From Ruficoccus sp. ZRK36 (GTDB lineage Bacteria > Verrucomicrobiota > Verrucomicrobiia > Opitutales > Cerasicoccaceae): a stretch of DNA of 64,000 nt. The DNA lies in NCBI RefSeq assembly GCF_019603315.1, contig NZ_CP080649.1, positions 449,501-513,500 of the forward strand, in the 5' to 3' direction. The first letter of the stretch is position 1; each line of letters begins with the position of its first letter. Of this stretch, positions 5,584-58,470 are shown piece by piece. Under the pieces are notes generated by a model. It saw only the letters and a program-made list of their open reading frames with translations. It was not told the DNA's origin and searched no databases. The translations under genes and the position numbers were made by a program.

Positions 5584-6627
5584 TCATCCTGCCGTCATCT
5601 TCTCCAAAGAGGCAACCCTTTTAAACAATTCAGGCAAACGTTTGCTCAAAATATCGATACGGTGCTGGAGCGCGGCGGTGTTCGCGGGCGAGCCGCGATA
5701 GTATGCACCGGGCTGTGTATCGCTGTGCAGACCCGCCTGGGCGCCGATCACACTGCCCTTGGCCAGCGTCAGATGGCCAGTAATCCCGGCCTGCCCGGCC
5801 ACGATGACAAAGTCCTCCATCGTCGTGCTGCCGGAGATACCCGCCTGGGCAACGATGAGGCAGCCCTTGCCGATGACGACGTTGTGGGCGATCTGGACGA
5901 GGTTGTCCAGTTTGCTGCCCTCCCCAATACGGGTGCTGCTGAAGCGTGCGCGGTCGATGGTAGTGTTTGCACCGATCTCGACATCGTTCTCGATGACGAC
6001 GTTACCAATCTGGGGCACCTTCTCGTGGACTCCCGAGTTCGTCTCAAAGCCAAAACCGTCCGACCCGATAACAACACCCGGATGCAGGCGCACGCGGTCG
6101 CCGACCTCGCAGTAATCGCCAATCGATACGTGGGCGGAAATACGGCACTGCGCCCCCACCGATGCCTCACGGCCAACAGTGACAAGCGACTCCAGGTTGG
6201 AGCCAGGGCCGATCTTCGCGCCTGCGCCGACGACACAATACGGGCCGACCCATGCGGTCGGGTCAACCTCCGCACTCTCGTCGATCACGGCAGTGGCGTG
6301 AACGCCCGGCTGAGGCTTGGGCCAGAGCATGGCCTCGATCGCACCGCAAAGGCGAGCGAGCCCGAGAGACGGATTCTCGAGGCGGACAAAGGCCTGGCCG
6401 GGAGCAGGAGCCCCCTCGTAGTCATGAAAAAGCAGGATGACCGAGGCGCGGCAAGTTTTGACGTCAGGGGTATACTTACGGTTCCCGAGGAAAGCGAGAT
6501 CACCCGGCTGGGCCTGCGCCAGGGAGGCGATACCGGTGATGGGCTGATCGAGCGATCCCTCGACCACCCCATCCTGCAAAATGCGGGTAATGTCCTCCAG
6601 GAGGAAGGATATGTTCATGCCGGGCAT
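5584..6627 (-). CDS. lpxD: UDP-3-O-acylglucosamine N-acyltransferase LpxD
   Basis: LpxD adds the N-linked acyl chain in lipid A synthesis, in the cytoplasm. The 347-residue protein has an N-terminal uridine-binding domain (about 1-100) and a long left-handed beta helix of hexapeptide repeats (about 105-310). The catalytic histidine is expected in [11 protein letters not shown]. The C-terminal helix carries a Leu-rich stretch as in other LpxD proteins. Gene order bamA-ompH-lpxD matches proteobacterial practice, but fabZ and lpxA do not follow here; prs does. A strong hairpin separates it from ompH, so it may have its own promoter or depend on read-through. Confidence 0.96.
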
Positions 6628-7417: not shown

Positions 7418-9784
7418 CTAGAAGACCGTACCGAAGGAGAAATTGAACTGCATACCGTCGTCGTTGAACTCGTCGGAGGTGAGCGGGAAGCCGAAGTCGA
7501 TGTTCAGCGGAGCCCCCATCAGCAGGATGCGGAAACCAAAACCGTAGTCGTCGTTGTAGGCGCTCGGGTCCCAGTTCAAGTCACCAGAGTTAACATAGCC
7601 CCAGTCATAGAACAGGGCGAAGCGCAGAGGCTCAAGGATCTGGAAGGTGTACTCGATCGAGGCGAAGGCCATGGTGTTACCGCCCAAGGTCTCCCCATAG
7701 CCGGGCTTACTCTTGTCCGTCTGCTTCGGGCCAACATCGCGGAACTGGAAGCCACGCAGGCTGTAGGGACCACCCAGATAGTACTGGTCGAAGAAGGGAA
7801 CGACGTTGTTGTCGTATGGGATGACGGTACCGGTGCGGCCACGGAAGCTGATCACCTGGTTGGCCCAGTCAAAAGTCTTGATCCACATGGCACCCGAGAG
7901 TGTCTGGCGCACATAGTCAGTCTGGCCACCCAAGGGGCCACCGGCAAACTCGGTCAAGCTCTCCAGACGCGTCCCCCGATCCGGGAAGATCAGGTTGTTA
8001 CGCGTATCACGCAGCAACTCAAAACCGATCTTGGACACACTGGTGTTACCGGCCTGCTGCTGCACATCCAGCGGAGCACCCGTGCTGACGTCCTTAATGT
8101 TCACGTCTTCAACCGTGTAGGAAAGCTTACCCTCAACCAGCTCGAAGAGGCGCTTGCGGAGATAGAACGTAGCCCCCATGCGCAACTCGTTATAGTTGAC
8201 GGACAGGTAGTTAGACTCCGTGCGGTAGAGCTCGAAGCCACCTGCCAGCTCACGTTCCCAGAGCCAGGGCTCTTCGAAAGCGAGCAGCACCTGATTGGAC
8301 TGAGAGCCAAGAGAGATACGCAGGCGGAACTTCTGACCACCGCCCTGGAACCACGAGCCCGGGCTGAAGATGTCGAAGTTACTCTGTGAAAGCTCAACAA
8401 AGCCAACGATGGACTCGACCGAGCTGAAACCGGCACCAAAGGTCAAGTTACCCGTTTGCCCCTCCTTGACCGTGATGCGCAGATTGCGGCGACCAGGGAT
8501 GTTGGTGGCTTCGGGCGAGAGGCGGACCTCGTCAAAGAAGCGGGTGTTCTCCAAGCGGGCCTGGCTGCTTTTCATCCGCACCAGGTCAAAGGTATCGCCC
8601 GGGGCGAGCGCAAGCTCGCGGACAATCACGCGGCTACGCGTCTTGGTGTTGCCCTGCAGGTTGATGCTTTCGACGAAAAACTTCTCACCCTCGGTGACGA
8701 TAAACTTAAGGTCAATGGTGCCGCCCTCGATATTCGGGTAGCGCTCGACACGTACAAAGGTATCCAGATAGCCAACCTGACCGTAGTAGTCCTTGAGGTT
8801 CTCGATCGTCAGATCGATCTGGCTCGGAGAAAAGGGGTCACCCGTACGCAGGCGGATGGCGCGGAGCAGTTCATCGGTCGGGAACAAGGTGTTACCCTCG
8901 ATATTGATATCACCGATGTAGTAGCGACGGCCCTCGTGGATGTGGATAACGACGTTCAGCTCGCCTTCATCCGGATACTCCAGCACGACCTCAGACTCGG
9001 GGATCTCTACGTCGAGGTAACCCTGGTCCTTATAATAAGTGCGGAGCTTTTCCAGGTCGTCCTGAAAGATTTCCTCCTGCAAACGACCGGTGCCCATGAT
9101 CCAGGAAATCAGCCAAATGTACTCGCTGGTCTCCATCTGGCTCGTCAGATCGCTGGACTCGACATGATCGTTGCCGACGAACTCGATGTTGTTGATAGCC
9201 AGGCGCTGGCCCTCATCGATATCGAATACGACCACCCCGGTGCCGAGCTGGTCGTTACGCTCGATCTCGTAGGAGACCTTGGCGTTGGTATAGCCCTGCT
9301 TCTGGTAGTAGCGGTAAAGCTTGGTCGCGTCGCGCTTGACCTGCACCTCGTCCAGCGGCAGGCCCACCTGGCTCTCGATCTCGTCCTGCAGGTCGCTATC
9401 GGACTCCCCGTCGTTACCCTCATAGAGGATCTGCGAGATACGGTACTTCGGGACGACAATAAAGGTCACGGAGATGCGCTCATTAGCCATCATCTGGCGG
9501 CGCACTTCGATAAACTCGAAATTCCCGGTCTGGTAAAGGGCCCGGATCGACTGGTCCACCAGATTTTGACTGAAGGTCTCCCCGACCCGCAGCCGCACGT
9601 GGGCCATGATGTTTTCAACGCTGACGGTCTTAACGCCCTCGAATATAACCTCGATATCCCCCACTACCGGATCCGCATCGGGAGCCAGCTGGGCCCGTGC
9701 CGGGCTGGGGGCGAATACAGAAATTAATAGTGTGAGGACGAGAAAGTAGCGTAGCCTAAGCAGAGTGTCTCTGTGAATTTTCAA
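7418..9784 (-). CDS. bamA: Outer membrane protein assembly factor BamA
   Basis: BamA folds and inserts beta-barrel proteins into the outer membrane. The 788 residues hold a signal peptide (to about residue 31, ending PSPARAQ), five POTRA domains (about 40-430) and an Omp85 barrel (about 440-788) that ends in Phe. The barrel includes YLGGPYSLRGF, which contains the conserved loop-6 (V/I)RGF-type motif. The first codon is TTG at 9784, and no ATG or GTG occurs before or within the signal peptide in this frame. This start lies 29 bases inside the dnaB reading frame, so translation is probably coupled to dnaB. ompH follows 122 bases downstream. Confidence 0.96.
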   Translation of the reverse strand: MKIHRDTLLRLRYFLVLTLLISVFAPSPARAQLAPDADPVVGDIEVIFEGVKTVSVENIMAHVRLRVGETFSQNLVDQSIRALYQTGNFEFIEVRRQMMANERISVTFIVVPKYRISQILYEGNDGESDSDLQDEIESQVGLPLDEVQVKRDATKLYRYYQKQGYTNAKVSYEIERNDQLGTGVVVFDIDEGQRLAINNIEFVGNDHVESSDLTSQMETSEYIWLISWIMGTGRLQEEIFQDDLEKLRTYYKDQGYLDVEIPESEVVLEYPDEGELNVVIHIHEGRRYYIGDINIEGNTLFPTDELLRAIRLRTGDPFSPSQIDLTIENLKDYYGQVGYLDTFVRVERYPNIEGGTIDLKFIVTEGEKFFVESINLQGNTKTRSRVIVRELALAPGDTFDLVRMKSSQARLENTRFFDEVRLSPEATNIPGRRNLRITVKEGQTGNLTFGAGFSSVESIVGFVELSQSNFDIFSPGSWFQGGGQKFRLRISLGSQSNQVLLAFEEPWLWERELAGGFELYRTESNYLSVNYNELRMGATFYLRKRLFELVEGKLSYTVEDVNIKDVSTGAPLDVQQQAGNTSVSKIGFELLRDTRNNLIFPDRGTRLESLTEFAGGPLGGQTDYVRQTLSGAMWIKTFDWANQVISFRGRTGTVIPYDNNVVPFFDQYYLGGPYSLRGFQFRDVGPKQTDKSKPGYGETLGGNTMAFASIEYTFQILEPLRFALFYDWGYVNSGDLNWDPSAYNDDYGFGFRILLMGAPLNIDFGFPLTSDEFNDDGMQFNFSFGTVF

Positions 9785-11177
9785 AACGCGTCAGGTGCTT
9801 GATGAAATATAAAGGCACAGTTCCTATGGGGCCGTTTCGCTGCTTGGCAACGATTAAATCCCTCGGGACGGCCTCGGCGGCCATTTCTTCATCCTCATTA
9901 TGATCCCGGGACTTGGAGAGGAGCAGGACCACGTCGGCGTCCTGCTCGATAGAGCCGGACTCACGCAGGTCAGAAATACGCGGCTGGCGCTTCTCTTTTT
10001 CAGACTCACGGTTGAGCTGTGCAAGGACGATAACGGGGACGCGCAGTTCCTTGGCCATGCCCTTCATACCACGGGAAATTTCTGCGATCTGCTGCTCACG
10101 CGGGATGCGTGAGTCGGTGCCATTGACGAGCTGGATGTAGTCCACGGCGATGAGGCCGAGCTTGCCCTTCATCTGGCTGGCCACACGGCGGGCCTTGGCA
10201 CGCAGCTCGAGGATGGTCAGGCCGGAGCTGTCATCGATCATGAGGGGGGCGCCCTTCAGCTCCTGAGCGGCGCGAACGATGTCCTGCTGTTTTTCCTTCG
10301 GGACGAAGCCGTCGCGCAGCTTGGTCATGTTGACCCGGGCCCGCGAGCAGAGCAGACGCATGGCCAGCTGCTCGGCAGGCATTTCCAGTGAAAACATCAG
10401 CGCACCGACCGCCTCGTGGCCCGGACGCGGGCAGATGGCCGGCTCGATCATGTTCAAGGCGATGGAGGTCTTACCCATCGAGGGACGGGCGGCGACGACG
10501 ATCATTTCCCCGTCGTGCCAGCCGGTGGTCATCTTGTCCAGGTCGGCAAAGCCGGTTGTCACACCGGTGATCTGCCCCTTGTTCTGGATCATGTTGTTGA
10601 CCAGCTGGACAGCGTCGTCAATGGACTTTTCCAGCGGCTGGGCAGCGTCGGTGATGCGGTTCTCGCTGACAGAGAAGATGTTCTGCTCGGTCTTTTCGAG
10701 GAAGCTGGCGACGTCCTGTGTCTCGTCATAAGCGCCCTCAATAGCCTCGTTAGAGAAGCGAATAACTTCGCGCAGGAGGTAGGCGTCGCGCACGCGCTGG
10801 ATGTAGTAGCTGAGGTGCGCGTGGGTGTCGATGCGGTTGGAAAGCTCGATCAGGTAGGCATCGCCGCCGGCGGCCTCGAAGTTCCCGTCCTGACGCAAAC
10901 GGTCCCCCAGGGTAATCTCGTCGATGGGGTTCTGCTTCTCATAGAGCCCGATCATCGCCTTGTAGATGAGCTGGTGGCGGGCATTGTAGAAGCTGGCGTC
11001 CCGGACGCGCTCCTGCACGCACAGAGCCATGGTCTCGCTACCGCCTTCCAGGATAATGGAGCCGAGCAGGGCCTGCTCCATGTCGATGCTGTAGGGGACG
11101 CGCCGGGCGATCGCAGGAGAATCCTTGCGGCGGCGGGAATCGTCGGGAGAGGGTTGGAAAGATGTGGCAGTGGCCAT
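9756..11177 (-). CDS. dnaB: Replicative DNA helicase DnaB
   Basis: DnaB unwinds DNA at the replication fork. The protein has an N-terminal primase-interacting domain (about residues 30-135) and a RecA-like ATPase domain. The Walker A motif is ARPSMGKTSIAL, LGLIAVDYIQLV is Walker B, and ESGSIEQDADVV is the conserved late motif. I take the ATG at 11177 (473 residues); a GTG at 11204 would add nine residues. The last 29 bases overlap bamA, an unusual pairing of replication with envelope assembly. Two perfect DnaA boxes lie 130-160 bases upstream. Confidence 0.96.
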   Translation of the reverse strand: MATATSFQPSPDDSRRRKDSPAIARRVPYSIDMEQALLGSIILEGGSETMALCVQERVRDASFYNARHQLIYKAMIGLYEKQNPIDEITLGDRLRQDGNFEAAGGDAYLIELSNRIDTHAHLSYYIQRVRDAYLLREVIRFSNEAIEGAYDETQDVASFLEKTEQNIFSVSENRITDAAQPLEKSIDDAVQLVNNMIQNKGQITGVTTGFADLDKMTTGWHDGEMIVVAARPSMGKTSIALNMIEPAICPRPGHEAVGALMFSLEMPAEQLAMRLLCSRARVNMTKLRDGFVPKEKQQDIVRAAQELKGAPLMIDDSSGLTILELRAKARRVASQMKGKLGLIAVDYIQLVNGTDSRIPREQQIAEISRGMKGMAKELRVPVIVLAQLNRESEKEKRQPRISDLRESGSIEQDADVVLLLSKSRDHNEDEEMAAEAVPRDLIVAKQRNGPIGTVPLYFIKHLTRFENSQRHSA

Positions 11178-43094: not shown

Positions 43095-44156
43095 ATGCCT
43101 CCGATGAAGTCCCCCAATCGCCAGTTCCTTTACGGGACCAGCTTGTTCCTGGGGACGATCGTGGTCGGGTTTCTCGTCTTCTGGCTGGCCGGGTGGCCCG
43201 CACTTGATGCCATCTATATGGTCATCATCACCATATTCGGTGTTGGCTACGGCGAGGTAAACACCATGACGCCGGAGCTGAGGATCTTTACCATCATCTT
43301 CATCGTCGCTGGCTGCACCGCCCTCATCTACACGATCGGTGCCTTTATCAACTGGCTGACCGAGGGTCAGCTCCAACGTTTGCTCGGAGAACGCAAAATG
43401 GAAAAAGACATCGAACAGCTTTCAAACCATGTCGTCATCTGTGGCTTTGGGCGCATCGGGCGGCTCCTGGCCGAGCAGCTCCACAGCGCCGACAGGGACT
43501 TTCTCATCATCGATCCCGATGCTCACCAGATCGAGCAGATTCGCGAGAGCGGCTACCTCTGCATCCAGGGTGATGCCACCGAGGAGACCACGCTCAAGAA
43601 AGCCCGCCTCAAGCAGGCATCCATCGTAGCGACCGTCATCCCCAACGATGCCGCCAATGTCTTTATCGTCCTAAGCTGCCGCCAGCTCAACCCGGAGCTC
43701 ATCATCATCGCCCGCGCGAACCAGACCTCCACCGAGTCCAAGCTCAAGCAAGCCGGTGCCGACAAGATCGTCATGCCCGCAGCCATCGGCGCCGACCGCA
43801 TCGCCCATCTCGTCCTCAAGCCCAACGCACGCGAAATCCTTGAGAAAGACCTCCACGACAACGCCTTTGTCGAAGGCCTCAGCGAGATCGGCCTCGAGAT
43901 GAACGAGATCACCCTCCCCGCCGACTCCCCCCTCATCGGCTGCAGCCTCGAGGAGCTGGAAACCCGCGGAAAAAGCGCCTTTATCGTGGTGGCCGTCCGT
44001 AAGCCCGACGGCCAAACCACTATCCGCCCATCACTCGACCTCCAGCTCGAAAGCAACGACACGCTCATCCTCATGAGCCACATCGGCATCACCCCGGACT
44101 TCGTCCGCCTCAAGCTCAACCGCAAGGAACGCTTCTACCGCGGCACCCGCCACTAA
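43095..44156 (+). CDS. Two-TM potassium channel with RCK domain
   Basis: TM1 is about 13-33, the pore with selectivity filter GVGYGE is at about 49-54, and TM2 is about 61-84. A TrkA-N (RCK) domain follows from HVVICGFGRIGRLL (Rossmann nucleotide site), then a TrkA-C domain near 255-345. Four such subunits form a K+ channel gated by nucleotide or cation binding to the RCK ring. The architecture is like MthK/GsuK channels. It precedes the tRNA-Arg gene and lies outside the island. Confidence 0.9.
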   Translation: MPPMKSPNRQFLYGTSLFLGTIVVGFLVFWLAGWPALDAIYMVIITIFGVGYGEVNTMTPELRIFTIIFIVAGCTALIYTIGAFINWLTEGQLQRLLGERKMEKDIEQLSNHVVICGFGRIGRLLAEQLHSADRDFLIIDPDAHQIEQIRESGYLCIQGDATEETTLKKARLKQASIVATVIPNDAANVFIVLSCRQLNPELIIIARANQTSTESKLKQAGADKIVMPAAIGADRIAHLVLKPNAREILEKDLHDNAFVEGLSEIGLEMNEITLPADSPLIGCSLEELETRGKSAFIVVAVRKPDGQTTIRPSLDLQLESNDTLILMSHIGITPDFVRLKLNRKERFYRGTRH

Positions 44157-44208: not shown

Positions 44209-44284
44209 TGGCAGGGGCAGAGGGACTCGAACCCCCGACCAATGGTTTAGAAAACCACTGCTCTATCCGCTGAGCTATGCCCCC
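44209..44284 (-). tRNA. tRNA-Arg (anticodon TCT)
   Basis: The reverse strand folds as a full tRNA. The acceptor stem has GGGGGCA at the 5' end and a G1-U72 pair. The D stem is GCTC/GAGC, the anticodon stem GTGGT/ACCAT has loop TTTCTAA (TCT), and the T loop is TTCGAGT. GCCA at the 3' end includes an encoded CCA. The 5' half is the target of the neighbouring integrase relic and recurs in degenerate form at 52841-52872. Confidence 0.97.
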
Positions 44285-44375
44285 AGGATTTTCAATAAAA
44301 AACTGTTATGAGGAAATTCTATCGGCGATTCCTCAAACTTGTCACCCATTTGTGCAACCAGACAGATTTTGACAC

Positions 44376-44726
44376 ATGAGCAACCCGAAGAAAGCCAGGC
44401 AACCGGGCTTTCTAAAAGTGGGTGAGTGTCTCTATCGCCATGAAACATCGGGCACTTACTATGCGTTGGTAAAGCCCAACGGCAAGCAAATCCGCCGTCC
44501 CCTCAAGACCAAGGACCTCCCCCTCGCCAAGCCCTGCCTGCGCGAATTTCGGGAGAAAATCGGTCGCCTCGACCTCACCGACGGCAAGTCCAAGCTCAGC
44601 GCTCCGCCGCGAGGCATCGTCCTCGATACCACTGCGAAGTCCTCCCCCACCGCAAGCAACCCAAACCCGCTTATCCTGATCCCCACTCGCGAGCAGGACG
44701 AGGGCCTCTCACCTCGGTGCATGTAG
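44376..44726 (+). pseudogene. Truncated tyrosine-recombinase integrase, N-terminal part
   Basis: The first 70 residues look like the start of a tyrosine integrase: GECLYRHETSGTYYALVKPN, then GKQIRRPLKTKDLPLAK and LREFREKIGRLDLTDGKSKL. That is the small N-terminal Arm/SAM-like part. After that the sequence becomes low-complexity and no catalytic domain (R...HxxR...Y) follows; the frame ends at 44726. It starts 92 bases from the 5' end of tRNA-Arg, the usual integrase location. It is likely a remnant. Confidence 0.7.
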
Positions 44727-44781
44727 GGCGCAAAAGCGGGCGTTCCGCCTCTCAATGCAGTCCAGGTGAAACGCTTTGGGG

Positions 44782-46185
44782 TTATTCCGGAGCTACATAG
44801 CCTTCGTCGCCGCCGAACTGCTTAAATTTCCGGAAGACCAGGAATGTCATGATAAGCGCCGAGATCGCCAGCACCATACCGCATAGGAAAACCAGGCGAT
44901 ACTGCTCGCCGCTCACATCAATAATCGTCCCTACAATAGGACCGATACCGATCACACCCACGGCCGTAAAAATACCTCCGGCTGAAGCAAATTGCGCAAA
45001 TTTATTGTGGGGGAAAAGGCGCAACCCCAGAGACGCAGACGTGGTGAAATAGCATCCAGATGTAACCCCATGGAGTACCCAGGAGATCAAGAAACTGTTT
45101 TGGTCATGCGTAAAAAGGAATCCCCAAAGCATCGACAGAGCATATAGGGTTAAAACGGCCATATCCATGCGCAGGGGATGGAATTTATCGACGAGCCAGC
45201 CCAGGAAGTAAGAAAGACACAGGGAAATCGTAAACATGAGCGCCATCGATTTTCCATACGCATCCATGCTGACGCCGAGTTTATGGGCGTAGGGCATCAC
45301 AAAGATGTTCACTGGCATGACGGTCAACTTCCCCACGACGATCATCACATACACCGTCAGGTAGTAGGGGCTTTTGTAGCACTCCCTTACGTAGGTTTTT
45401 ACGCCTCGGAGAAATGCGAGTGCGAGCGGGGGGTTATTGGGATCTTTGGGAGGAGGTGGAGGATATTCGCCTTCCTTCACCTTCAAACACACAAGCATGA
45501 ATGAAACCCCGTAGAAGATACCGACGACGACGAGAATGAGCGTGAAATGCGTAGAGGCATGCCCGAATACCCAGTAGTTGAAAATGATGCCATCGATGAG
45601 ACTTACGGCACGGAACAAACCAAAAAAACGTCCGAGCAACTCTCTGGGGACAACATCATTGATGAGCCCACCGAACACGGCTTGGCCTGCAACCGTTGAA
45701 AACTCGAAAAAGGCCCAGAACACGGCAAAGCAGATAACTCCGATGACCCAATCGTGTTCGCTAGGGAAGTGGGAGTGCACCCACCTCGCGACAATCGGCG
45801 TTATGCCAATGCCGATGATGCCAAGGGCCGCGATCGGTGTCGTAAATAAAAGGAACGGAAGACGGCGCCCCCAACGGCCACGGTGCCGGTCCGACTTAAC
45901 ACTGATAATCGGGCTGAGAATCAGGCTGATCACCGCCGGGAAAGAACTGATGATCAATCCGAAGTACAGGTTGGGTACTCCCAGGTCACTCAAATACCAC
46001 GATGCCAAGGGCCCCACTGAACGTTCTCGCATCGCCCAGGAGAAGTCACCCAGTAATAACCATACGAACAGCATCATCAAGCCCCCGGCAGAATACGTCA
46101 GGGTGCCTACGGTCCATACCTTGCCGGGCTGCTTCGGTTTTAGTCGAGATGGTAATAATTTAGAAAACATGATGCGAATGACCAA
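44782..46185 (-). CDS. MFS sugar transporter, GPH-like
   Basis: The 467-residue protein has about twelve hydrophobic segments. SVKSDRHRGRWGRRLPFLL is the loop-2 motif of the glycoside-pentoside-hexuronide and related cation symporters, placed between TM2 and TM3. A matching second-half region is AYGKSMALMFTISLCLSYF. It probably imports the sugars released by the secreted lyase of the same cluster. It is the last gene of the island operon, with a perfect palindrome 20-38 bases upstream of its start. Confidence 0.85.
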   Translation of the reverse strand: MVIRIMFSKLLPSRLKPKQPGKVWTVGTLTYSAGGLMMLFVWLLLGDFSWAMRERSVGPLASWYLSDLGVPNLYFGLIISSFPAVISLILSPIISVKSDRHRGRWGRRLPFLLFTTPIAALGIIGIGITPIVARWVHSHFPSEHDWVIGVICFAVFWAFFEFSTVAGQAVFGGLINDVVPRELLGRFFGLFRAVSLIDGIIFNYWVFGHASTHFTLILVVVGIFYGVSFMLVCLKVKEGEYPPPPPKDPNNPPLALAFLRGVKTYVRECYKSPYYLTVYVMIVVGKLTVMPVNIFVMPYAHKLGVSMDAYGKSMALMFTISLCLSYFLGWLVDKFHPLRMDMAVLTLYALSMLWGFLFTHDQNSFLISWVLHGVTSGCYFTTSASLGLRLFPHNKFAQFASAGGIFTAVGVIGIGPIVGTIIDVSGEQYRLVFLCGMVLAISALIMTFLVFRKFKQFGGDEGYVAPE

Positions 46186-46204
46186 ATTCCATTTTGCTCA
46201 CAAT

Positions 46205-46223
46205 ATTCGACCGATGGTCGAAT
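46205..46223. promoter_or_regulatory. Perfect inverted repeat upstream of the transporter
   Basis: ATTCGACC-GAT-GGTCGAAT is an 8+3+8 palindrome. Its position just upstream of the start at 46185 suggests an operator or an attenuating hairpin. Confidence 0.5.
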
Positions 46224-46366
46224 CGCGGGGTAATCTGCGATGCTAAATATATAGGCGCATGAGTGCCAATAGCCTATATCGGTCCAATATATAGAGCGGG
46301 ATAGCTTGTGTGGCGGCCCAACGGAAGCCGTTAAGCCACCACCCGTGAAGAAGAAGTGTTCTAGAA

Positions 46367-47203
46367 CTAGCTGCGCTTGTTCCGACGGCGACGGAGTGCA
46401 AGCAGAACAAGTGGGATGATCCCCATATACAGGCTGCTTTCGCTGATCTCGGGTATGGAGATGCTGTCATCAACAACGATGTCATCCAGATACATCGTGC
46501 CGGTAAACGCGGGCGAAGTTTTAGCGGTAATGTTGAAACTGCGAATATTCACGCCTGTGCCAAGGCTACCAGCTCTACCCAGGTCATCGCCCACCAGCTC
46601 CCCGTTTAGGTAGACATCCATGGCTCCGGCAACGATGGTACCTCCGCTGTAGGTGAGCGGGCTGTCCGAGTTGTTGAATACAATATCCAATTGGTTGGCT
46701 TCATTCTGATTGTAGCTGGCGAAGGAGGTGGCGCTTGGTATGATGTCACTGCCGTAGGCAAGGATCAGTTCGCCATTCTGAATAAATATGGCAAACGCAG
46801 CCTTGGCGTTCCCCGAATCTTGATTGCTAATGCGGAACACAAAGCCGTTACCCGAATGGGGCTCGCTAGAGGGATCGTAGAAGGCGAAGCTCATCTGCCC
46901 AGTCTGCGTTCCCGGTCCATCGAAGACCGTGCTCCTGGCCACCATTTGTGACGATAGATTACTTCCCGACAGACTGCCATACTGATTCGGTCCCGCAGAG
47001 AACATGTGACTGCTGTCAGTCTCAGTGTCGAAGTCGTACGCGACGACCTGAAGCCAGTTTTCGCTGTAATCTGTATTCCACGGTACGGGTTCGCCGGCCG
47101 TGTATTCGTCAAAATTTTCTGAGAATATCACCGTCGCGTGGATGGCTGACATGCTTCCGAGCAGTAGTGTGGAGATGGCCAATGCTTTCGCTATCTTATT
47201 CAT
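46367..47203 (-). CDS. PEP-CTERM-like secreted protein
   Basis: A signal peptide (ending MSAIHA) precedes a beta-rich extracellular domain of about 220 residues, with Asn/Ser/Gly-rich strands. The end, IPEISESSLYMGIIPLVLL followed by ALRRRRNKRS, has the PEP-CTERM layout with PEI in place of PEP, a membrane segment and an Arg-rich tail. Such tails are recognised by exosortase. The protein may bind sugar at the surface, an inference from the lyase and transporter around it. It lies 61 bases after the dehydrogenase. Confidence 0.75.
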   Translation of the reverse strand: MNKIAKALAISTLLLGSMSAIHATVIFSENFDEYTAGEPVPWNTDYSENWLQVVAYDFDTETDSSHMFSAGPNQYGSLSGSNLSSQMVARSTVFDGPGTQTGQMSFAFYDPSSEPHSGNGFVFRISNQDSGNAKAAFAIFIQNGELILAYGSDIIPSATSFASYNQNEANQLDIVFNNSDSPLTYSGGTIVAGAMDVYLNGELVGDDLGRAGSLGTGVNIRSFNITAKTSPAFTGTMYLDDIVVDDSISIPEISESSLYMGIIPLVLLALRRRRNKRS

Positions 47204-47264
47204 GCTATTTAATATTGGGGGTTCGTGTGGGTATTAAGTTTGGTGTTTTGAAGCGCTACCAGGC

Positions 47265-48341
47265 TCAGGTTGAGCGGAGGTAGCTTTCTAAAGTGACGAT
47301 CGCCTTAAGCGGTAACTGATGGGTGTAGTTTTGAATATTTTCCAGCGCCAGGCGGCCGCAGTCCTTGTAGAGGTCTTGCGTGGGGCCGGCGATATGAGGT
47401 GAGAAGACGGCCCCCTCCAACTCATGGAACTCCGAATCGGGCGGCAGAGGTTCACGGGCAAAAACATCGGTGCCGAGTCGAATACGGCCCCGACGTATTT
47501 CATCGGCCAGCGCGCTTTCATCGACCAGAGCTCCCCGCCCTACGTTGACGAAGACACCATCATCGGGAAGCAGGGCGAACATCTCGGCGGTGACGCTATG
47601 CCGGGATTGCTCGGTGAGTGACTCACATTCGATAAGGATTTCACTGTTCGCGAAAAGATCCGACAAGCTGCCATAAGGTTGCACACCAAACTCGTGCATT
47701 AAATCATCGGGTACCCCCTGCGAATACGCGCCAATAGTGACATCGTAGGGTTGTAGTAATTCGGTGATTTTCTGGGCCACATTGCCAAAGCCATGTAAGC
47801 CTACTTTTTTTCGGGCAAGTGACTGAGTCTTCAGGGCCAGCTTAGACGATTCATAATCTTTTTGGGGCTTCCGTAGTACTTGTTGCCAACGAGGCAGCGC
47901 CCGCAAACACGCTAAAACCAGCAAAATGGCATGCTCTGCCACAGACATACTCGCTAAGGTTCCCCAGTTGCTGACCACGATGCCTTTTTTGAATGCCAGC
48001 TCGGGCACAAGCTTACGGACAGTCCCAGTAAGGTGACAGATATACTCTACGCCGAACCAGTCGCTCTGAACCATGGACTCAGTGACAGGGGGCGTGGTCC
48101 ATCCGGTCACAAGTATCGTAGGATTGTGGAGCTTTAGCAGCTCCTCCCAGCGGCCGCGGTTCTCACTGCACAGCGGTAATAGCGTCCAGGACACGTGATC
48201 GGTACTCTCAGGTAGCCCTTGAGGCAGGAAGCGGGTGAATTCCTGCTCACTTACTGCCACCAGGACTCGCTGTCGGTCCGCAGAGGGTATTCGAGGGGTG
48301 TCCTCGTGAATAGCCGGGGTGGTCAGATTCGTATTCAGCAT
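47265..48341 (-). CDS. D-isomer-specific 2-hydroxyacid dehydrogenase
   Basis: The 358-residue NAD(P)-dependent enzyme reduces 2-oxo acids or oxidises D-2-hydroxy acids. KKVGLHGFGNVAQKITELL is the Rossmann motif, VNVGRGALVDE carries the catalytic Arg, FAREPLPPD the Glu, and SPHIAGPT the His. The substrate is unknown, but within a uronic-acid lyase cluster a sugar-derived 2-oxo acid is plausible. The gene lies 87 bases after lacI, with the GTGCA palindrome between them. Confidence 0.88.
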   Translation of the reverse strand: MLNTNLTTPAIHEDTPRIPSADRQRVLVAVSEQEFTRFLPQGLPESTDHVSWTLLPLCSENRGRWEELLKLHNPTILVTGWTTPPVTESMVQSDWFGVEYICHLTGTVRKLVPELAFKKGIVVSNWGTLASMSVAEHAILLVLACLRALPRWQQVLRKPQKDYESSKLALKTQSLARKKVGLHGFGNVAQKITELLQPYDVTIGAYSQGVPDDLMHEFGVQPYGSLSDLFANSEILIECESLTEQSRHSVTAEMFALLPDDGVFVNVGRGALVDESALADEIRRGRIRLGTDVFAREPLPPDSEFHELEGAVFSPHIAGPTQDLYKDCGRLALENIQNYTHQLPLKAIVTLESYLRST

Positions 48342-48385
48342 TATGCATAAAATACCCCGTATATTTAACGGCTAAAGCAAATCCC

Positions 48386-48403
48386 TGTGCACACAGTTGC
48401 ACA
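48386..48403. promoter_or_regulatory. Candidate LacI-family operator
   Basis: TGTGCA-CACAGT-TGCACA is an inverted repeat with a 6-base centre, 45-62 bases before the dehydrogenase start. Thirteen of its bases (GCACACAGTTGCA) recur at 52774-52786, upstream of the lyase gene. Confidence 0.5.
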
Positions 48404-48428
48404 CTACTATTGGAATTAAGGATAACTG

Positions 48429-49466
48429 CTATAACTTTGAAGGCAGGGTCTCCCCCTCTATCCATACGCCTTCGATGTGCACGCGACGCACCTTTGCGGG
48501 CACACCACGCTCACCCCGCATGATCATGTTGGTGAGCAAGTCCACCGCAACTTCCCCGATGTGGAGGGAGTCCTCATAAACCCCGGACAACTTGCCGTCA
48601 CGATCAGTCAGGAGCGGGCAAGCCGCTGGGTAGTCTTCGGGTAGGCGCAGGCCGATGCTGGGACACTTGCGCATGATGAGATGGTCGCCTACGACCAGTG
48701 CATCGATAGTCTTACCCTCTTTTCTCTGCTCCTTCAGGAAGGCCGGTAAGCCTTCAGGGGCCTCTACATGATAACTATAAATGATGGGCGCTTCGCCAAT
48801 CTTATGCTGCGCCGATAAGTAGGCAGAAAGATAGTTATTGTCGGCGCGCTCATCGTGTTTGGGGTCGAACACAAATGCGATTTTGCGATAGCCGCGCTCA
48901 TGCATCATTTTCATTGTGTACTGCATGGCGCGATACTGAGTCGCCGTCACGGTATGCAGCTCCGGCTTACTCAGGGTGTAGCCAAAGGTAATCAGCGAAA
49001 AATCTTCCCACGCGAAATCGATAGTCGTGGAGGGAAGCGATTGTGGGCACAAGAGTATGCCTTTGACGTTCCGGGCCCTCAAGATGGAGGCCATCCGCTT
49101 CGTGGTGTACTTTTTCTGATCGAACTCAAAAATCTCCAGTTGGTAGCCATATTTGTCCGCCTGCGCTTTAGCTCCCTCGTGGTACAAAGAAAAAGTTTTG
49201 GAGCGAAACCATTTAAATTGCTTGAGGTTCGTGTATATAACAAGCCATGCCAGCACACCATGGTAGCCGCTCTTTCTATTACTCGATCGATAGGCGGCCA
49301 GGGATGCCAGCATCGGGTCAGGGCGATAGCCCAGCTCTTCAGCAATGCGCAGGATTCGCTCGCGAGTCGAGGCAGGGATTCCCGGATGGTTACTGAGCGT
49401 CCGCGAGACGGTGCCACGGTGGACACCTGCCTTTTTTGCGATGTCTTCTTGTGTGACGCGTTTCAT
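48429..49466 (-). CDS. LacI-family transcriptional regulator
   Basis: The 345-residue protein has an N-terminal helix-turn-helix (VTQEDIAKKAGVHRGTVSRT) with the hinge helix STRERILRIAEELGYRPD. A periplasmic-binding-like sensor domain follows (about 60-340). Such repressors leave the DNA when they bind a sugar or oligosaccharide. It sits within the polysaccharide cluster, downstream of the lyase gene, so that locus is the likely target. The shared GCACACAGTTGCA sites are candidate operators. Confidence 0.92.
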   Translation of the reverse strand: MKRVTQEDIAKKAGVHRGTVSRTLSNHPGIPASTRERILRIAEELGYRPDPMLASLAAYRSSNRKSGYHGVLAWLVIYTNLKQFKWFRSKTFSLYHEGAKAQADKYGYQLEIFEFDQKKYTTKRMASILRARNVKGILLCPQSLPSTTIDFAWEDFSLITFGYTLSKPELHTVTATQYRAMQYTMKMMHERGYRKIAFVFDPKHDERADNNYLSAYLSAQHKIGEAPIIYSYHVEAPEGLPAFLKEQRKEGKTIDALVVGDHLIMRKCPSIGLRLPEDYPAACPLLTDRDGKLSGVYEDSLHIGEVAVDLLTNMIMRGERGVPAKVRRVHIEGVWIEGETLPSKL

Positions 49467-49583
49467 CTGCCCTCAGTGCTTCAGCAGAATGGTGGCTATC
49501 CGCTATTTGTTCGTCAACAAGGGAACACGTCATAGAATTCGCCGAGGGCAGGCATCAGGCAATGGTTTGAGTGATTGCAGCGT

Positions 49584-52472
49584 CTATTTGGATTCTGGGG
49601 CAGCCCCTACCAAGGTAAACGAGTCGATATTGATAGAAGCCGACGGGGCCGTCAGCTCGATGTTGTGCTTGCCCTGGGCCAACTCGATCGCGAGCGGGTT
49701 ACCGTCTTCATCGCTGAACGTGTAGTCCCTCCAATCATCGGACGCATTGGCCCAGCCTCCGGTGCTAGCCAAAGGTATTGATTGTGCCTTTTCAGAAGGG
49801 GCCAGCCCATCGATGAGCAGCGTTACTGTCGGATTTTTCATACTGCAGTAGCGCATGGTCAGGTAGTAGGTTCCCTCCTCAGGGACGTCGACTTCCCATG
49901 TCAGGCTCTCGCTGTAGTCCCGGCTTCCAAAAGATTTTAGCGCCATACCTCCCGACGCAGCTACCTTTTCTGCGGGCAGCGCATTGCTATTCTGGTTAAC
50001 AATGTCCACCTCGGCTTCCCAATTGATTTTCACGGATGCCGGTGCCGGGGGCAGGCCTTTAGTGGGAGCTATGTCGAAGGTTGGCTTTTCACGCGTTCGC
50101 ATTTGCTTACCGGGCACTGCCATCAGCGACTGGACATCGCTTTTGTTGGCCGCCAGGAAATACTGGCCTGCGGGCAGCTCCAGTCTCGGAGACATGGGGA
50201 CGAGTTCACCTTTAGCGCTATAGACGAGTAAGCCAGATGCTGCCTCAAGTCTTCCATCGAGAGGTGTTATAAGATCCAAAATCCAACCCGACTCATGGCG
50301 CGACAGCTCAAAGCTGACGGGCGTAGAGGACTCCAGCTTCATAATCTCCGATTGAATGGAATGTCCGTTGTAAGCGAATAGACGGCTAAGCTCTCCTTTC
50401 TCAAACCGAGCCACCGCAACATCCGCATTAAAATGTACGGGAGCGGCGTCCTCGCATACAAAAGTCTGCGGAGTGCCATCTGCATGGACGAGAATCTCGT
50501 CTGTCCAATTGGGGTGCGTGACGGTGGCGGTCCATCCGGACTCACCGCTGGGCGCACACTGAGTTGTCAGCGTGGGGCCTGCGCCCCCGCCAAACACGGG
50601 TTGCATCAAGAAGGCGTATTTTACCGAGTCACCACGCTGTACGGCGGTATACGTGCGTTGAGCATTGTTCTTTTTATCTATTTCAGGGCTCGTTGGTTCG
50701 CGCAGGGTGAAGTCCGTGCCATTCGGATAAATAGAGTTGATCTTTAAACGGCCAGCGCGACCAGTCAGGTTGATCGTACCGGCATCCACCTGAGCAGAGG
50801 CAGCTGTTTGCGCGAGCCAATCGACGGTTATCGGTTCGGGTGAATTGATGGAGTCGAACAACAGGAAATAGTCGTCGCGCACGTGTAGGATGCTACGCCG
50901 GGCTTCCGGTCTCGTTGCGTAGGCTTCGCTGAGATCGACCGAGGTCCACATGAAATCGGGCGTCGTTGCAAACTGGTCAATGGTGCCACGGGCCTGCGGC
51001 TCGAAGCTCTGGTTCTCGCCATTAATCAAGAGGGTCGAGTGGGACTCCGTCGCGTTTGAGAAAAACTCCCAGCGGGGCCCGGATGAATTCCAAAACTTGC
51101 GTTGACCAGCACCCGTCCCATAACCAGGCGTTAACAAGAGCCATTGATCGCCGAAGATGAATGCGATGGCACCTGCATCCAGATGGCTGTGATTGCGGTT
51201 GGTGTAGCCCGATTTCAGCGTGAGCAGGTAATCGTTAATACTCCAGCCACTGCGCGTTGTCACCACATCCCAATCCGCGATGTGGTAGTCGAGTTTACTC
51301 GGGGCCTCGGGGGTGACTGCCGCATCATACCACATGAGCAAAAGTGCTGTTGCATCGCTACCGCCTTTGGGGCCGTAGGGCATGTTTTCAGCTATATACT
51401 GTGCAGCGGAGTTATCGTATTGAGCAGCCAGTCTGGCCAGCAGGTGCTGGGGTCCGTAAAAATCGTAAGTCGGCGCGTCTCCCCAGGGCAGGACCCCCTG
51501 AAGGCCGGGAGCCGCACAGGCGACTCGGTAATTCGCAGCATGCTTCAGGAACGGCTCCTCATAGTAGACTTGTGCCCCGGTTATCGGGCGCGTGCCTTCG
51601 ATGTACTGCAAAATAAAAGACAGCGAGTAAGACCAATAGGGAACGCCCTCGGCTGTGCTCCCGTCATCCTCAAGATAGCTCATAACAAAGTCGAAGTTCG
51701 TCTTTGCCGCTGAGAGCCAATAGCGCGCTTCGCGCAAGTCACCGTAGAATGCGACTCCGGCAAAACCCAGCGCCGTCGCATTGATATGATTATGGTTTTC
51801 GGTGTAATTATTGGCCCAGAATGCTTCGCCCCGAAGCCCCTTATACAGCGTGCCAACACGCTCCTTTATGACCTCACGTATCAGGTTTTTCTCGTCCTCA
51901 CTGAACAGGTCTTTGTGCCAGTCCCAAGCCAAGGCAACACCACGGGCCATATGACCACAGGCCAAGTCCATATTCGTTTTTGGCGAGAGACCCCACTGCG
52001 GGTAATGGCAGCCGCTTATCACCAAATCATGGAGGCTCTTTCGGTATTTCGGGTCTTCACTCAGCTTGGCGGCCAGGCAAAGCAGGAATATATCGTCACC
52101 CACGCGGCGCTGCCATTGCTCTGCCAGTTTCTGCCTGTGCGAGTGATGCGGATGGTCGTTCTCTTCGGGGGACATATACGCCCGGGCAGGGTGCGAAGAG
52201 AGTTCATCGGCAACCTCAAAGACGTGCTTTCGAAGCTCGGGATAGTCGCCCTCGTCAGAAAGCATGCGCGCGATAACCTCAGGCCACTCCTCTTCCAGGT
52301 AAAATAGACGAGAGCCTTTTTCTGGCATGCGTTCCTGCCATTGGGCTTCATCCAGCTGAAAGGTATTCTGAATATGTGCCGGGGAAATATGAGGCCAGCT
52401 CGCATCGGCCAAAACGGTCAAAGGCGCAAGCAAGATAAAATACAAGAGGGATTTTCGATGGGTAAGATACAT
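49584..52472 (-). CDS. Secreted heparinase II/III-type polysaccharide lyase
   Basis: The ATG at 52472 gives 962 residues: a signal peptide (MYLTHRKSLLYFILLAPLTV, cut after LA), an alpha-toroid lyase domain with DUF4962-like features (about 30-400), and a heparinase II/III beta-sandwich. NNYTENHNHINATALGFAGV and GYTNRNHSHLDAGAIAF carry expected catalytic Asn, His and Tyr positions. The last 160 residues form a CBM-like beta-sandwich. Lyases of this fold cleave uronate-containing polysaccharides (alginate, heparin-like, others). The substrate is not determined. It is the first gene of the island operon. Confidence 0.85.
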   Translation of the reverse strand: MYLTHRKSLLYFILLAPLTVLADASWPHISPAHIQNTFQLDEAQWQERMPEKGSRLFYLEEEWPEVIARMLSDEGDYPELRKHVFEVADELSSHPARAYMSPEENDHPHHSHRQKLAEQWQRRVGDDIFLLCLAAKLSEDPKYRKSLHDLVISGCHYPQWGLSPKTNMDLACGHMARGVALAWDWHKDLFSEDEKNLIREVIKERVGTLYKGLRGEAFWANNYTENHNHINATALGFAGVAFYGDLREARYWLSAAKTNFDFVMSYLEDDGSTAEGVPYWSYSLSFILQYIEGTRPITGAQVYYEEPFLKHAANYRVACAAPGLQGVLPWGDAPTYDFYGPQHLLARLAAQYDNSAAQYIAENMPYGPKGGSDATALLLMWYDAAVTPEAPSKLDYHIADWDVVTTRSGWSINDYLLTLKSGYTNRNHSHLDAGAIAFIFGDQWLLLTPGYGTGAGQRKFWNSSGPRWEFFSNATESHSTLLINGENQSFEPQARGTIDQFATTPDFMWTSVDLSEAYATRPEARRSILHVRDDYFLLFDSINSPEPITVDWLAQTAASAQVDAGTINLTGRAGRLKINSIYPNGTDFTLREPTSPEIDKKNNAQRTYTAVQRGDSVKYAFLMQPVFGGGAGPTLTTQCAPSGESGWTATVTHPNWTDEILVHADGTPQTFVCEDAAPVHFNADVAVARFEKGELSRLFAYNGHSIQSEIMKLESSTPVSFELSRHESGWILDLITPLDGRLEAASGLLVYSAKGELVPMSPRLELPAGQYFLAANKSDVQSLMAVPGKQMRTREKPTFDIAPTKGLPPAPASVKINWEAEVDIVNQNSNALPAEKVAASGGMALKSFGSRDYSESLTWEVDVPEEGTYYLTMRYCSMKNPTVTLLIDGLAPSEKAQSIPLASTGGWANASDDWRDYTFSDEDGNPLAIELAQGKHNIELTAPSASINIDSFTLVGAAPESK

Positions 52473-52606
52473 AATTCGCAAATAGGGATAAAGGGCTTGT
52501 TGCCTAGAGTAGAGGGCCGGGAAGATGGCCATTGTTTGCATTGGCGTAAAGTTGAGCGCCGACTCCGATCTGGCGGAAATGACTCGAGCAGGTAATGAGT
52601 TGCGAT

Positions 52607-52726
52607 CTACTCCTGTCGGGGAAGTGCGGCAGGGGTAATGATCGCTGCCGAAACGGCGACCATCACGGCCATGACCAGCAATCCGATTCGAGTAAAAGCC
52701 CGGCGGGTTGGGGTTGAGCGAGGCAT
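52607..52726 (-). pseudogene. Relic of a prepilin-like leader
   Basis: A 39-residue frame reads RRAFTRIGLLVMAVMVAVSA, close to the type IV prepilin N-methylation leader (usually RRAFTLIELLV). The Glu at position 5 after the cleavage site is replaced by Gly. The frame stops soon after the hydrophobic segment. Verrucomicrobia carry many such leaders on secreted proteins. It probably marks a truncated gene. Confidence 0.45.
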
Positions 52727-52773
52727 ACGATCTATACACGCAAATATAGCTCGTTTTGCACCTCCCCTTAAAG

Positions 52774-52786
52774 GCACACAGTTGCA
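52774..52786. promoter_or_regulatory. Second copy of the operator-like word
   Basis: GCACACAGTTGCA repeats the core of the site at 48389-48401. It lies about 300 bases upstream of the lyase start, in a gap that otherwise holds only gene relics. Confidence 0.4.
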
Positions 52787-52838
52787 TAGCTTGTCGCTAG
52801 AATCAGACGATTTGGGCGAGAAAGCCCGTTTCGTGCCA

Positions 52839-52872
52839 GGAAACCACTGCGCTACCCACTGAGCGATGCCCA
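52839..52872 (-). pseudogene. Degenerate 5' half of a tRNA-Arg gene (candidate att site)
   Basis: Read on the reverse strand, it gives the 5' acceptor, D arm and 5' anticodon arm of a tRNA close to tRNA-Arg, then breaks off at the anticodon loop. Twenty-seven of 32 bases match the intact tRNA. No 3' half follows. It is the right boundary proposed for the island. Confidence 0.6.
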
Positions 52873-53133
52873 CGCGGTGTATGACCGAAATCCCGGACTG
52901 ACCGGATGCCGCGGAAATCGCTGCACATACATGAAGACCGTGCCCAAACGGCAATCAAATCCTCCGGCGAGGAGAGCGGCCTTCGGGCGAAGCGAGATCC
53001 CTGCGGGAAAGGATTGAACCCGGAGACTGCGAAGTGATAATTTCACAAAATCACAATGAGCGCCGCAACCGGCAGGCGTTCATCCCGGCGACATCGCCAA
53101 CGACTCAGCTCCAACACCATACCTGATCCTTTT

Positions 53134-57303: not shown

Positions 57304-57696
57304 CTAGCGGGACTGGAGGCGGACCTTGGGCAGCTTGGCCTTGCGGGACTGGTCCATGACAAAGGTCACGAAGTGCAGCGGCACATCCTGGTCAGCCATG
57401 AGCAGCACCGAGGGCGGCTCCTTTTGCGCGGCCGCCTCATTAAAGGCGGTGACGAGCTCGTCTTCGCTTACGGGCTTATTATCGATAAAGTACTGCCCCT
57501 CGGTGTCGATGCCGACCATGAGCTGGATGATCTCCTTGTCCTTGCCCGCGGTCTCGATCTGCGGCGGGGTGATGTTCAAAACGTCCATGTTCTTGAACTG
57601 CATGGTCATCAAGAAGAAGAAAATGAGCACAATCAGCACGTCGATCAACGGCACGATGTTGATCTCGGTCTTTTTCCTGCGCTTTTGGATGTCCAT
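57304..57696 (-). CDS. exbD: ExbD/TolR-family proton-channel protein
   Basis: The 130-residue protein has one membrane segment with INIVPLIDVLIVLIFFFL, whose Asp is the proton-carrying residue, then a periplasmic domain ending in a beta-rich tail. It pairs with the ExbB/TolQ-type protein encoded 12 bases upstream and should energise an outer-membrane process, either TonB transport or the Tol system. TolB is encoded at 19.3 kb, but no tonB is visible here, so the system is not decided. Confidence 0.9.
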   Translation of the reverse strand: MDIQKRRKKTEINIVPLIDVLIVLIFFFLMTMQFKNMDVLNITPPQIETAGKDKEIIQLMVGIDTEGQYFIDNKPVSEDELVTAFNEAAAQKEPPSVLLMADQDVPLHFVTFVMDQSRKAKLPKVRLQSR

Positions 57697-57708
57697 CCGG
57701 CGAGCGAG

Positions 57709-58293
57709 TTAGGCCTTGGCGAGCTTGGACTTGGCGATGTCGATCATGCGCTCGACACCGACGTTGATCTGCGCGCTGAGCATGTCCACTCGGCGCGTCA
57801 GGTAGCTATTACCGACCAGCGCGGGGATGGCGATCGACAGACCCAGCATGGTCGTGCCCAGTGCCAGTGCGATCCCCTGCACAAACTGCGTGGGATCAGG
57901 CATGCCACTGGCCGGGTCGATGCCCTGAAAAACTTCGATCAGGCCCGTCACCGTACCCAGCAGGCCAAGCAGCGGCGCAGCCCCGACCACGATATCGAGG
58001 ATGAACATCCCGCGCTCCAGCCGGGCGATCTCCAGTGCCGCAAAGGCCTTGAGTGCGTCCGGGTCCGGGGCATTGAGCTTGTAAAAGAAAAGAATGCGGC
58101 CACCGACGGAGTGCGGGTCGCCCTCCAGCTCCAGCACGTCGCCCGTCACGAAACTGTCCACCAGGTCCTTGGGGAGGATGCGCGAGCTGCGCAGCGCGAT
58201 CAGGCGCTCAACGATAATAAAGACCGCCAAAACCGAGCACAGGCCCAGCGGCAGCAGAAAGGTCCAACCGATGTCGTGGAGAAAACTAATCAT
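57709..58293 (-). CDS. exbB: ExbB/TolQ/MotA-family proton-channel protein
   Basis: The ATG at 58293 gives 194 residues with three membrane segments (about 10-30, 100-120, 145-165). GAAPLLGLLGTVTGLIEVFQ is the family signature and carries the conserved Thr/Gly of the pore. It lies 12 bases before exbD. An upstream start at 58395 runs into repeat DNA and is not supported. Confidence 0.9.
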   Translation of the reverse strand: MISFLHDIGWTFLLPLGLCSVLAVFIIVERLIALRSSRILPKDLVDSFVTGDVLELEGDPHSVGGRILFFYKLNAPDPDALKAFAALEIARLERGMFILDIVVGAAPLLGLLGTVTGLIEVFQGIDPASGMPDPTQFVQGIALALGTTMLGLSIAIPALVGNSYLTRRVDMLSAQINVGVERMIDIAKSKLAKA

Positions 58294-58349
58294 AAGCGGC
58301 AGAGAGTCCCAACCAACACGGGCTAAAACCCCGCCCCGCGCAAGGTTTT

Positions 58350-58470
58350 TCTGCGGGGCTGCGCACCCCGCGCCCACGGCAGGCGAAGCCTGCACTTTCG
58401 ATGCTGCGCATCGTGTCAGCGATTAGTGAAACCAGCGCGCTGGTTTCACTAATCGCTGAGCAGAGCATCC
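58350..58470. repeat. Composite palindromic repeat, copy 2 (inverted)
   Basis: A perfect 20-bp stem is 58417-58436 with 58439-58458. Next to it are the GGCAGGCGAAGCCTGC hairpin and a GC-rich arm around 58352-58372. Read in reverse it matches the copy at 27903-28036 closely, but the stem differs at three positions, each compensated on the other arm. Confidence 0.85.

Follow-up and report, generated by a model that had tools for sequence, protein, structure and literature searches.

Introduction

Integration into the 5' half of a tRNA gene is already known, as a minority mode. Islander counts 159 of 3919 tRNA islands as 5'-type (PMC4383910), and in Sinorhizobium meliloti the 5' end was the one matched by 9 of 88 tRNA-inserted sequences. 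Archaeal pTN3-like integrases are described as users of the 5' half, with the rebuilt tRNA expressed from the integrase side, and as seldom found in bacteria (PMC8371274). A Thaumarchaeota survey gives 5' recombination as considerably rarer (PMC6563490), and a work that this survey cites deals, to judge from its title and the context of the citation, with recombination involving the 5' portion of a tRNA gene. Here we analyse a 64-kb stretch of the Ruficoccus sp. ZRK36 genome (the stretch is hereafter the window, its positions serve as coordinates, and the whole genome is G000), in which an island at 44247-52873 is bordered by an intact tRNA-Arg(TCT) gene and a displaced, decayed copy of the 5' half of that gene. 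Very probably, the island is a dead element of a kind that targets tRNA 5' halves, with an interior that is now a five-gene locus, at a site likely occupied before the split from a second genome of the same genus (G001).

Like the 5'-type islands in Islander (PMC4383910), the window combines an intact tRNA gene with an equally oriented fragment of that gene's 5' end, which lies on its upstream side, and an integrase stands between the two. It differs in that its integrase is a remnant, and in that one integrase group here follows the 5'-type, a minority among the Islander entries, as its rule. The pTN3-like integrases, likened to this family by description only, share with it an attB site in the tRNA 5' half, but they are archaeal while the present family is bacterial (PMC8371274). 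Tycheposons, as described second-hand (PMC10872708) and also compared by description only, resemble the window in their tRNA border, tyrosine recombinase and fitness-type cargo, and are given there as 4-200 kb. The kind of integration is known, but a bacterial integrase group with the 5' half as its rule did not appear in the literature searched; no description of this Verrucomicrobiota integrase family was found in that literature, the search being limited to one collection and chosen terms.

Results

ARAGORN predicts a single tRNA gene in the whole window, tRNA-Arg(TCT) at 44209-44284 (minus strand), and Rfam agrees, confirming the intact gene that a preliminary description of this DNA had reported. 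The direct copy of its 5' half that the same description placed at 52.84 kb is also there, at 52836-52873 (minus strand). In direct orientation it is identical to tRNA nucleotides 1-38 at 30 of 38 positions, the next-best direct match in the window reaching 22/38, and about 7e-7 matches as good are expected by chance (both strands, base-composition model). In G001, the same tRNA adjoins a complete tyrosine integrase of 357 aa (PF00589, 5.5e-18), and an exact 38-nt 5' half stands at the corresponding place 11,910 nt away, followed by the same transketolase gene as in the window, with quite different cargo in between. The displaced half in the window is preceded by 30 nt (52806-52835) with a GGGC..GCCCTTT-like sequence, which we take for the right terminus of the element. 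These 30 nt share 93% identity with the end of the G001 element, and because of this match we regard the displaced half as a real attachment site. From the borders of the repeat, the 5' half of the intact tRNA (44247-44284, minus strand) is taken to be element-supplied.

At the opposite end of the island, an open reading frame (ORF) of 116 aa (44376-44726, plus strand) starts 92 nt from the tRNA-Arg 5' end. A Pfam search gave no match for it; its residues 1-77 are 90.9% identical to the complete tyrosine integrase found at the same site in G001, which identifies it as an integrase and bears out the truncated gene of the preliminary description. Compared as DNA with the G001 integrase gene, the window retains codons 1-74 and about 153-188, and the remaining protein is missing. 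The leader between tRNA and integrase (44285-44375) still contains, at about 44339-44360, the left tandem repeat; this putative arm site agrees with the family motif at 15 of 18 positions. The window thus has the intact tRNA and, upstream in the same orientation, the cognate 5' fragment of a 5'-type element; the integrase between the ends is present as a remnant, and is complete in G001. The family trait of a TTGTNACCC repeat both in the leader and near position -149 from the half is lacking in the window, where the far-end copy is absent. On the homology of its integrase and ends, we file the window element as a decayed member of the family. A second relic of the family in G000 is an 85-nt stretch (locus L178:9699-9783) upstream of a tRNA-Met gene (9832-9907) and 89% identical to the integrase gene of a tRNA-Met element in a further relative, G003; no complete copy of the integrase family was found in G000 at 1e-30.

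At the tRNA-Arg locus of another relative, G002, the integrase contains one TAG and the cargo is small; the transketolase gene is there too, and a 5' half was searched for and not found. The tRNA-integrase region of the window is 87.8% identical in DNA to that of G001 and 85.7% to that of G002, and the transketolase gene 87.7% and 84.2%. With integrase region and transketolase identities equal, it looks as if the insertion at tRNA-Arg were older than the species split. Five relatives (G003, G004, G005, G008 and G009) have tRNA-Arg(TCT) with no adjoining integrase or half in the 7-9 kb on each side; among these integrase-free sites, G003 retains the left-flank genes and G004 has only exbB/exbD nearby. 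The exbD/exbB genes lie beyond the transketolase in the window (57304-58395), on the tRNA 3' side in G002 (L118:131-1114) and near tRNA-Arg in G004, and from this differing placement we conclude that the tRNA-Arg neighbourhood has been rearranged. A TrkA-type ion-channel gene (43095-44156) sits between a response regulator and tRNA-Arg in the window; it has no ortholog in G001 or G002, a distant match only in G003, and matches of 62-71% in G005, G008 and G009.

Displaced halves were scored in a first test of 18 tRNA loci, 13 with integrase sequence beside the tRNA and five without. A displaced 5' half was found at 8 of the 13 (seven exact, and that of the window at 30/38) and at none of the five integrase-free loci (best 23/38), and no prominent copy of a 3' half was seen at any of the 18 (best 24 of 37 or 38, and 26/49 for the longer 3' part of tRNA-Leu). 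In the exact cases the repeat starts at most 3 nt from tRNA nucleotide 1 and ends inside the anticodon loop.

Uninterrupted sites are available for tRNA-Lys. Both flanks run through this tRNA in G000 (L176) and G001 (L177), while in G002 (L129) 10,484 nt separate the tRNA from a 41-nt identical 5' copy, and in G003 (L128) the half is on the far side of a 4,521-nt element. The leader of the G003 displaced half resembles the native leaders (gapped scores 43 and 46, reached by 0 of 500 shuffles each), and the rebuilt tRNA-Lys genes in both G002 and G003 follow a common element leader, weakly similar to that of G000 (7 and 5 of 500 shuffles) and at background against that of G001. The native-like leader at the G003 half and the common element leader at the rebuilt genes together indicate that insertion replaces the native leader, which may in turn alter transcription of the tRNA. 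In an ungapped comparison of tRNA-Lys leaders, the displaced halves were at background (0.21-0.33). Between the tRNA-Lys elements of G002 and G003, the integrase ends agree at 91.4% over 1.9 kb, as against 67% and 84% for two aligned flank pieces, a gap that points to transfer between species.

A search of named genomes for the integrase family returned 28 loci. By title, the partial match L159 is from a proteobacterium, L137, L152 and L162 are just "bacterium" or "uncultured bacterium", and the others are Verrucomicrobiota or subgroups of it. Six partial matches (L156, L158-L162) were left unclassified; at L160 the tRNA overlaps the partial integrase match. The integrase start is present in 22 named loci, and in 20 of them ARAGORN places a tRNA just upstream, on the opposite strand; the other two have a tRNA broken by NN (L146) and a tRNA 5' half only (L140). 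At the latter (L140:930-960), the 5' half without a 3' half precedes the integrase, which would fit a tandem insertion or a free attP form. The 43 integrases placed in a tree divide into 38 5'-type members, four 3'-type members and one at a contig edge (L198, unlabelled), so that the tRNA 5' end faces the integrase in 38 of the 42 classified; L140 and L146 were called 5'-type by eye, and fragments and broken copies (e.g., L118, L123, L128, L130, L131, L134, L175, L203 and L213) were left out. Two changes of type are needed on the tree, and the 3'-type members (L206, L207, L210 and L173), all at tRNA-Leu, fall into two separate changes. All five further members from elsewhere in the phylum (the L230-L234 set) are 5'-type, and Megablast revealed no near-duplicates within the 43 tree integrases or between them and this set. 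A regular expression for the catalytic motifs proved too strict (22/43 passed every motif) and was not used.

The targets in 5' geometry cover ten anticodons (Arg-TCT, Arg-CCT, Met, Lys-TTT, Leu-TAG, Leu-CAA, Leu-CAG, Thr-TGT, Thr-CGT and Ser-GCT). The family is uncommon, being found in 28 of 372 genomes of the order (1e-50) and 8 of 387 of the phylum (1e-80), and Pelagicoccus mobilis KCTC 13126 carries an apparently complete element of 7,955 nt at tRNA-Met, whose half is exact, whose arm repeats are both present and whose integrase frame is open. Of the 20 named loci for which ARAGORN gave a tRNA, three duplicate loci tested before; the remaining 17 yielded displaced halves in four cases, three exact and one 37/38 (L136, L137, L153, L145), and 11 further loci gave one exact and one 34/38 (L224, L223). 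At the remaining loci of both sets none was seen, and some of these reach contig ends or may exceed the sequence span; the distant relatives, all four 3'-type loci among them, yielded no displaced fragment.

As a control, 40 other integrases of the same ten genomes were hand-picked from 93 PF00589 matches, with the Xer-like top rows and the present family left out. No tRNA or tmRNA lay within 600 nt of 27 of them, and all 13 with such a neighbour face its 3' side, the 5'-type accounting for 0/13. Ten control integrases of about 430-480 aa (L265, L269-L273, L278-L280 and L293) run into an opposite-strand tRNA gene, so that their last residues come from the antisense of the tRNA 3' half; insertion or excision could alter the C-terminus of these ten. 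A phage or plasmid home for the integrase is unsupported: 14 phage and two plasmid records matched at E 1e-10, the matches listed having at most 28% identity, and the 14 pattern stretches from viral contigs include no integrase relative.

The leaders between tRNA and integrase carry a tandem repeat, TTGTNACCC-N4-TTGTNACCC, in 24 of 32 cases with one mismatch allowed per repeat, and 11 of 14 elements have the same repeat again ahead of the displaced half, at a distance of 138-151 nt. As the motif was derived from the leaders, the far-end matches alone constitute an independent test. They score at least 16/18 in seven elements and 14/18 in one (0/100 shuffles each), 13/18 in one (6/100 shuffles) and 12/18 in two (24 and 28 of 100); among the 14 elements examined, the far-end repeat is absent in the window, L223 and L224. 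These repeats look like integrase arm sites. An inverted repeat in the same leaders was considered and rejected (mean 4.33 vs 4.21 shuffled, with 16 of 60 shuffled sets reaching as high a value), and a by-eye look for promoter hexamers in the element leader gave no convincing common pair.

Inside the island, five minus-strand genes occupy 44782-52508, in keeping with the co-directional set of the preliminary description. They encode an MFS transporter (44782-46185; PF07690, 2.6e-22), a secreted protein with a PEP-CTERM-like tail (46367-47203), a D-2-hydroxyacid dehydrogenase (47265-48341; PF02826, 3.9e-37), a LacI-type regulator (48429-49466; PF00356, 5.4e-13) and a polysaccharide lyase with DUF4962 and Hepar_II_III_C domain matches (49584-52508), whose frame is open to 52787 and whose start at 52508 was picked by eye at a signal-like stretch. 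The PEP-CTERM-like tail was read by eye; the protein has homologs in the paralogous clusters L181 and L182, and gave no Pfam match above the cut-off and no NCBIfam match. A secreted-looking protein of a tRNA-Met sister element (L223:17723-18634), with no Pfam match, resembles it by eye. The best PDB relative of the lyase is 9o3q, a PL35 chondroitinase (residues 139-601, E 2.3e-23), an extra C-terminal region marking the difference from the PL35 lyases, and the lyase also matches a PL15 alginate lyase (3.1e-13); the substrate is presumably an acidic polysaccharide. The guanine-cytosine (GC) content of 44727-52805, a comparison proposed in the preliminary description, is 0.534, below all 164 overlapping windows of the same length (0.567-0.615, mean 0.593) taken elsewhere in the window and from four further stretches of the same genome.

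The set of lyase, LacI regulator and dehydrogenase recurs at two other places in G000 (51-52%, 56% and 48-49% identity, respectively) and once each in G006, G001, G003, G007 and G008. Given these paralogous and related clusters, the five-gene locus is a usual catabolic set in the family of these bacteria, and the polysaccharide cargo of the island is ordinary. A tRNA gene adjoins one of seven such loci (L182, tRNA-Met). A search for a close donor of the cargo covered 372 genomes of the order at a threshold of 1e-180, with no more than two candidates per genome scored, and found none: beyond the island, the best-scoring relative of the lyase was in G000 itself, at 53%. In several sister elements there are genes for an HTH_17 regulator and a rolling-circle-type Rep, and their cargo variously includes type II restriction-modification, SIR2-like, type ISP, PIN, Fic, restriction-helicase and YaaC-like genes. 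None of the five window genes is of these types, and with Rep and HTH_17 absent the window lacks the rolling-circle combination of integrase, HTH and Rep. AbrB-like/PIN gene pairs at L117:10415-11259, L118 (about 5700-6360) and L127 (about 7870-8540) are visibly alike, and this likeness, judged by eye, between different tRNAs and different species suggests modular exchange.

Discussion

How did the cargo arrive? The element may have brought the polysaccharide locus in one insertion, its integrase and right arm decaying later, and we regard this as a serious candidate, if short of probable. It is the acquisition as one unit that had been proposed before, and it stands in so far as the genes lie wholly within the element ends, the GC content of the interior is low, also against the 0.594 and 0.570 of two paralogous clusters in G000, and relatives of the element carry varied cargo. 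It falters in that the mobility parts, integrase core and right arm site, are both missing exactly at the cargo edges, the integrase seems older than the cargo, since the tRNA-integrase identity equals that of the transketolase, and the cargo at this site differs between the three species, with no such catabolic set in any sister element examined. Equally, an element may already have been resident, with the locus taking the place of its interior through recombination or through a tandem insertion followed by deletion. Such a replacement, which we hold to be nearly an even prospect, would agree with the different cargos at one site in G000, G001 and G002 with integrases tracking the core genes, and with the loss, on the borders of the cargo, of both integrase core and right arm, and the related clusters elsewhere in G000 would be a possible source. 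However, the lyase, LacI regulator and dehydrogenase are just 48-56% identical to their paralogs, hence no recent copy, no recombination junction was found, and the 330 nt before the half have no match to L180 or L181. Delivery and later replacement are about evenly balanced.

That there is no island at all, and that the half-tRNA is a chance match or the relic of a duplicated tRNA, seems to us very improbable. The copy is indeed imperfect and no exact empty site was found for tRNA-Arg, but against this stand the minute chance expectation, the sequence adjoining the half, which matches the G001 element end and not a tRNA 3' half, and the integrase remnant at the opposite end; the comparison with G001 contradicts it as well.

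The dead element that we favour has several observations weighing against it. In the search for an empty site that the preliminary description proposed, integrase-free tRNA-Arg genes were found in the five relatives, with one or no recognisable flank, and no base-exact empty site with both flanks was found among them. In the window, the displaced half matches the tRNA at 30 of 38 positions only and the right arm site is absent (10/18, a score reached by 100 of 100 shuffles). No half was seen at 5 of the 13 integrase-bearing loci, some of them at contig ends, and at L161 the tRNA 3' end faces the C-terminal side of the integrase, contrary to the 5' rule. At the G002 tRNA-Lys (L129), 0.3-0.4 kb past the half is unaligned before the right flank resumes, and the leader of the displaced half is unlike the native ones (338 and 232 of 500 shuffles score as high). 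The earlier claim of a tRNA-targeting integrase whose element restores the 5' half is supported by the G001 element, the shared element end and the tRNA-Lys sites.

We propose that a small integrative element entered tRNA-Arg(TCT) via recombination in the anticodon loop, the enzyme being a tyrosine integrase from the Verrucomicrobiota family with tRNA 5' halves as its targets. With the element would have come a new 5' half for the tRNA and a new leader (44247-44375), the old 5' half and the former upstream DNA now starting at 52836, and the site was probably occupied before the split from G001. The window copy would then have died, with the integrase catalytic domain lost, the right arm site gone and the displaced half drifting, and its interior would now be an acidic-polysaccharide locus of lyase, MFS transporter, LacI regulator, dehydrogenase and secreted protein. 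Comparison provides the geometry, the common ends, the same-site relative and the uninterrupted tRNA-Lys sites of this explanation, and we infer the age, the immobility, the substrate and the dependence of the tRNA on the element leader for its transcription.

More tentatively, and as a possibility that we would not yet call probable, we suggest a phylum-wide family of small elements that take tRNA 5' halves as a rule, and in which the element leader with its putative arm sites replaces, at each insertion, the native leader of an essential tRNA gene. Integration into the 5' half deprives the tRNA of its native leader and presumably of its promoter, which integration of the usual 3' type does not do. 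Island callers tuned to 3' fragments would overlook 5'-type elements. A group with a 5' rule, exact borders, uninterrupted sister sites and the element of Pelagicoccus mobilis KCTC 13126 makes this effect on the tRNA directly testable. If the suggestion is true, expression of the tRNA would be coupled to the element, and element ends, even as dead husks, could persist in the chromosome as fixed places where cargo is swapped.

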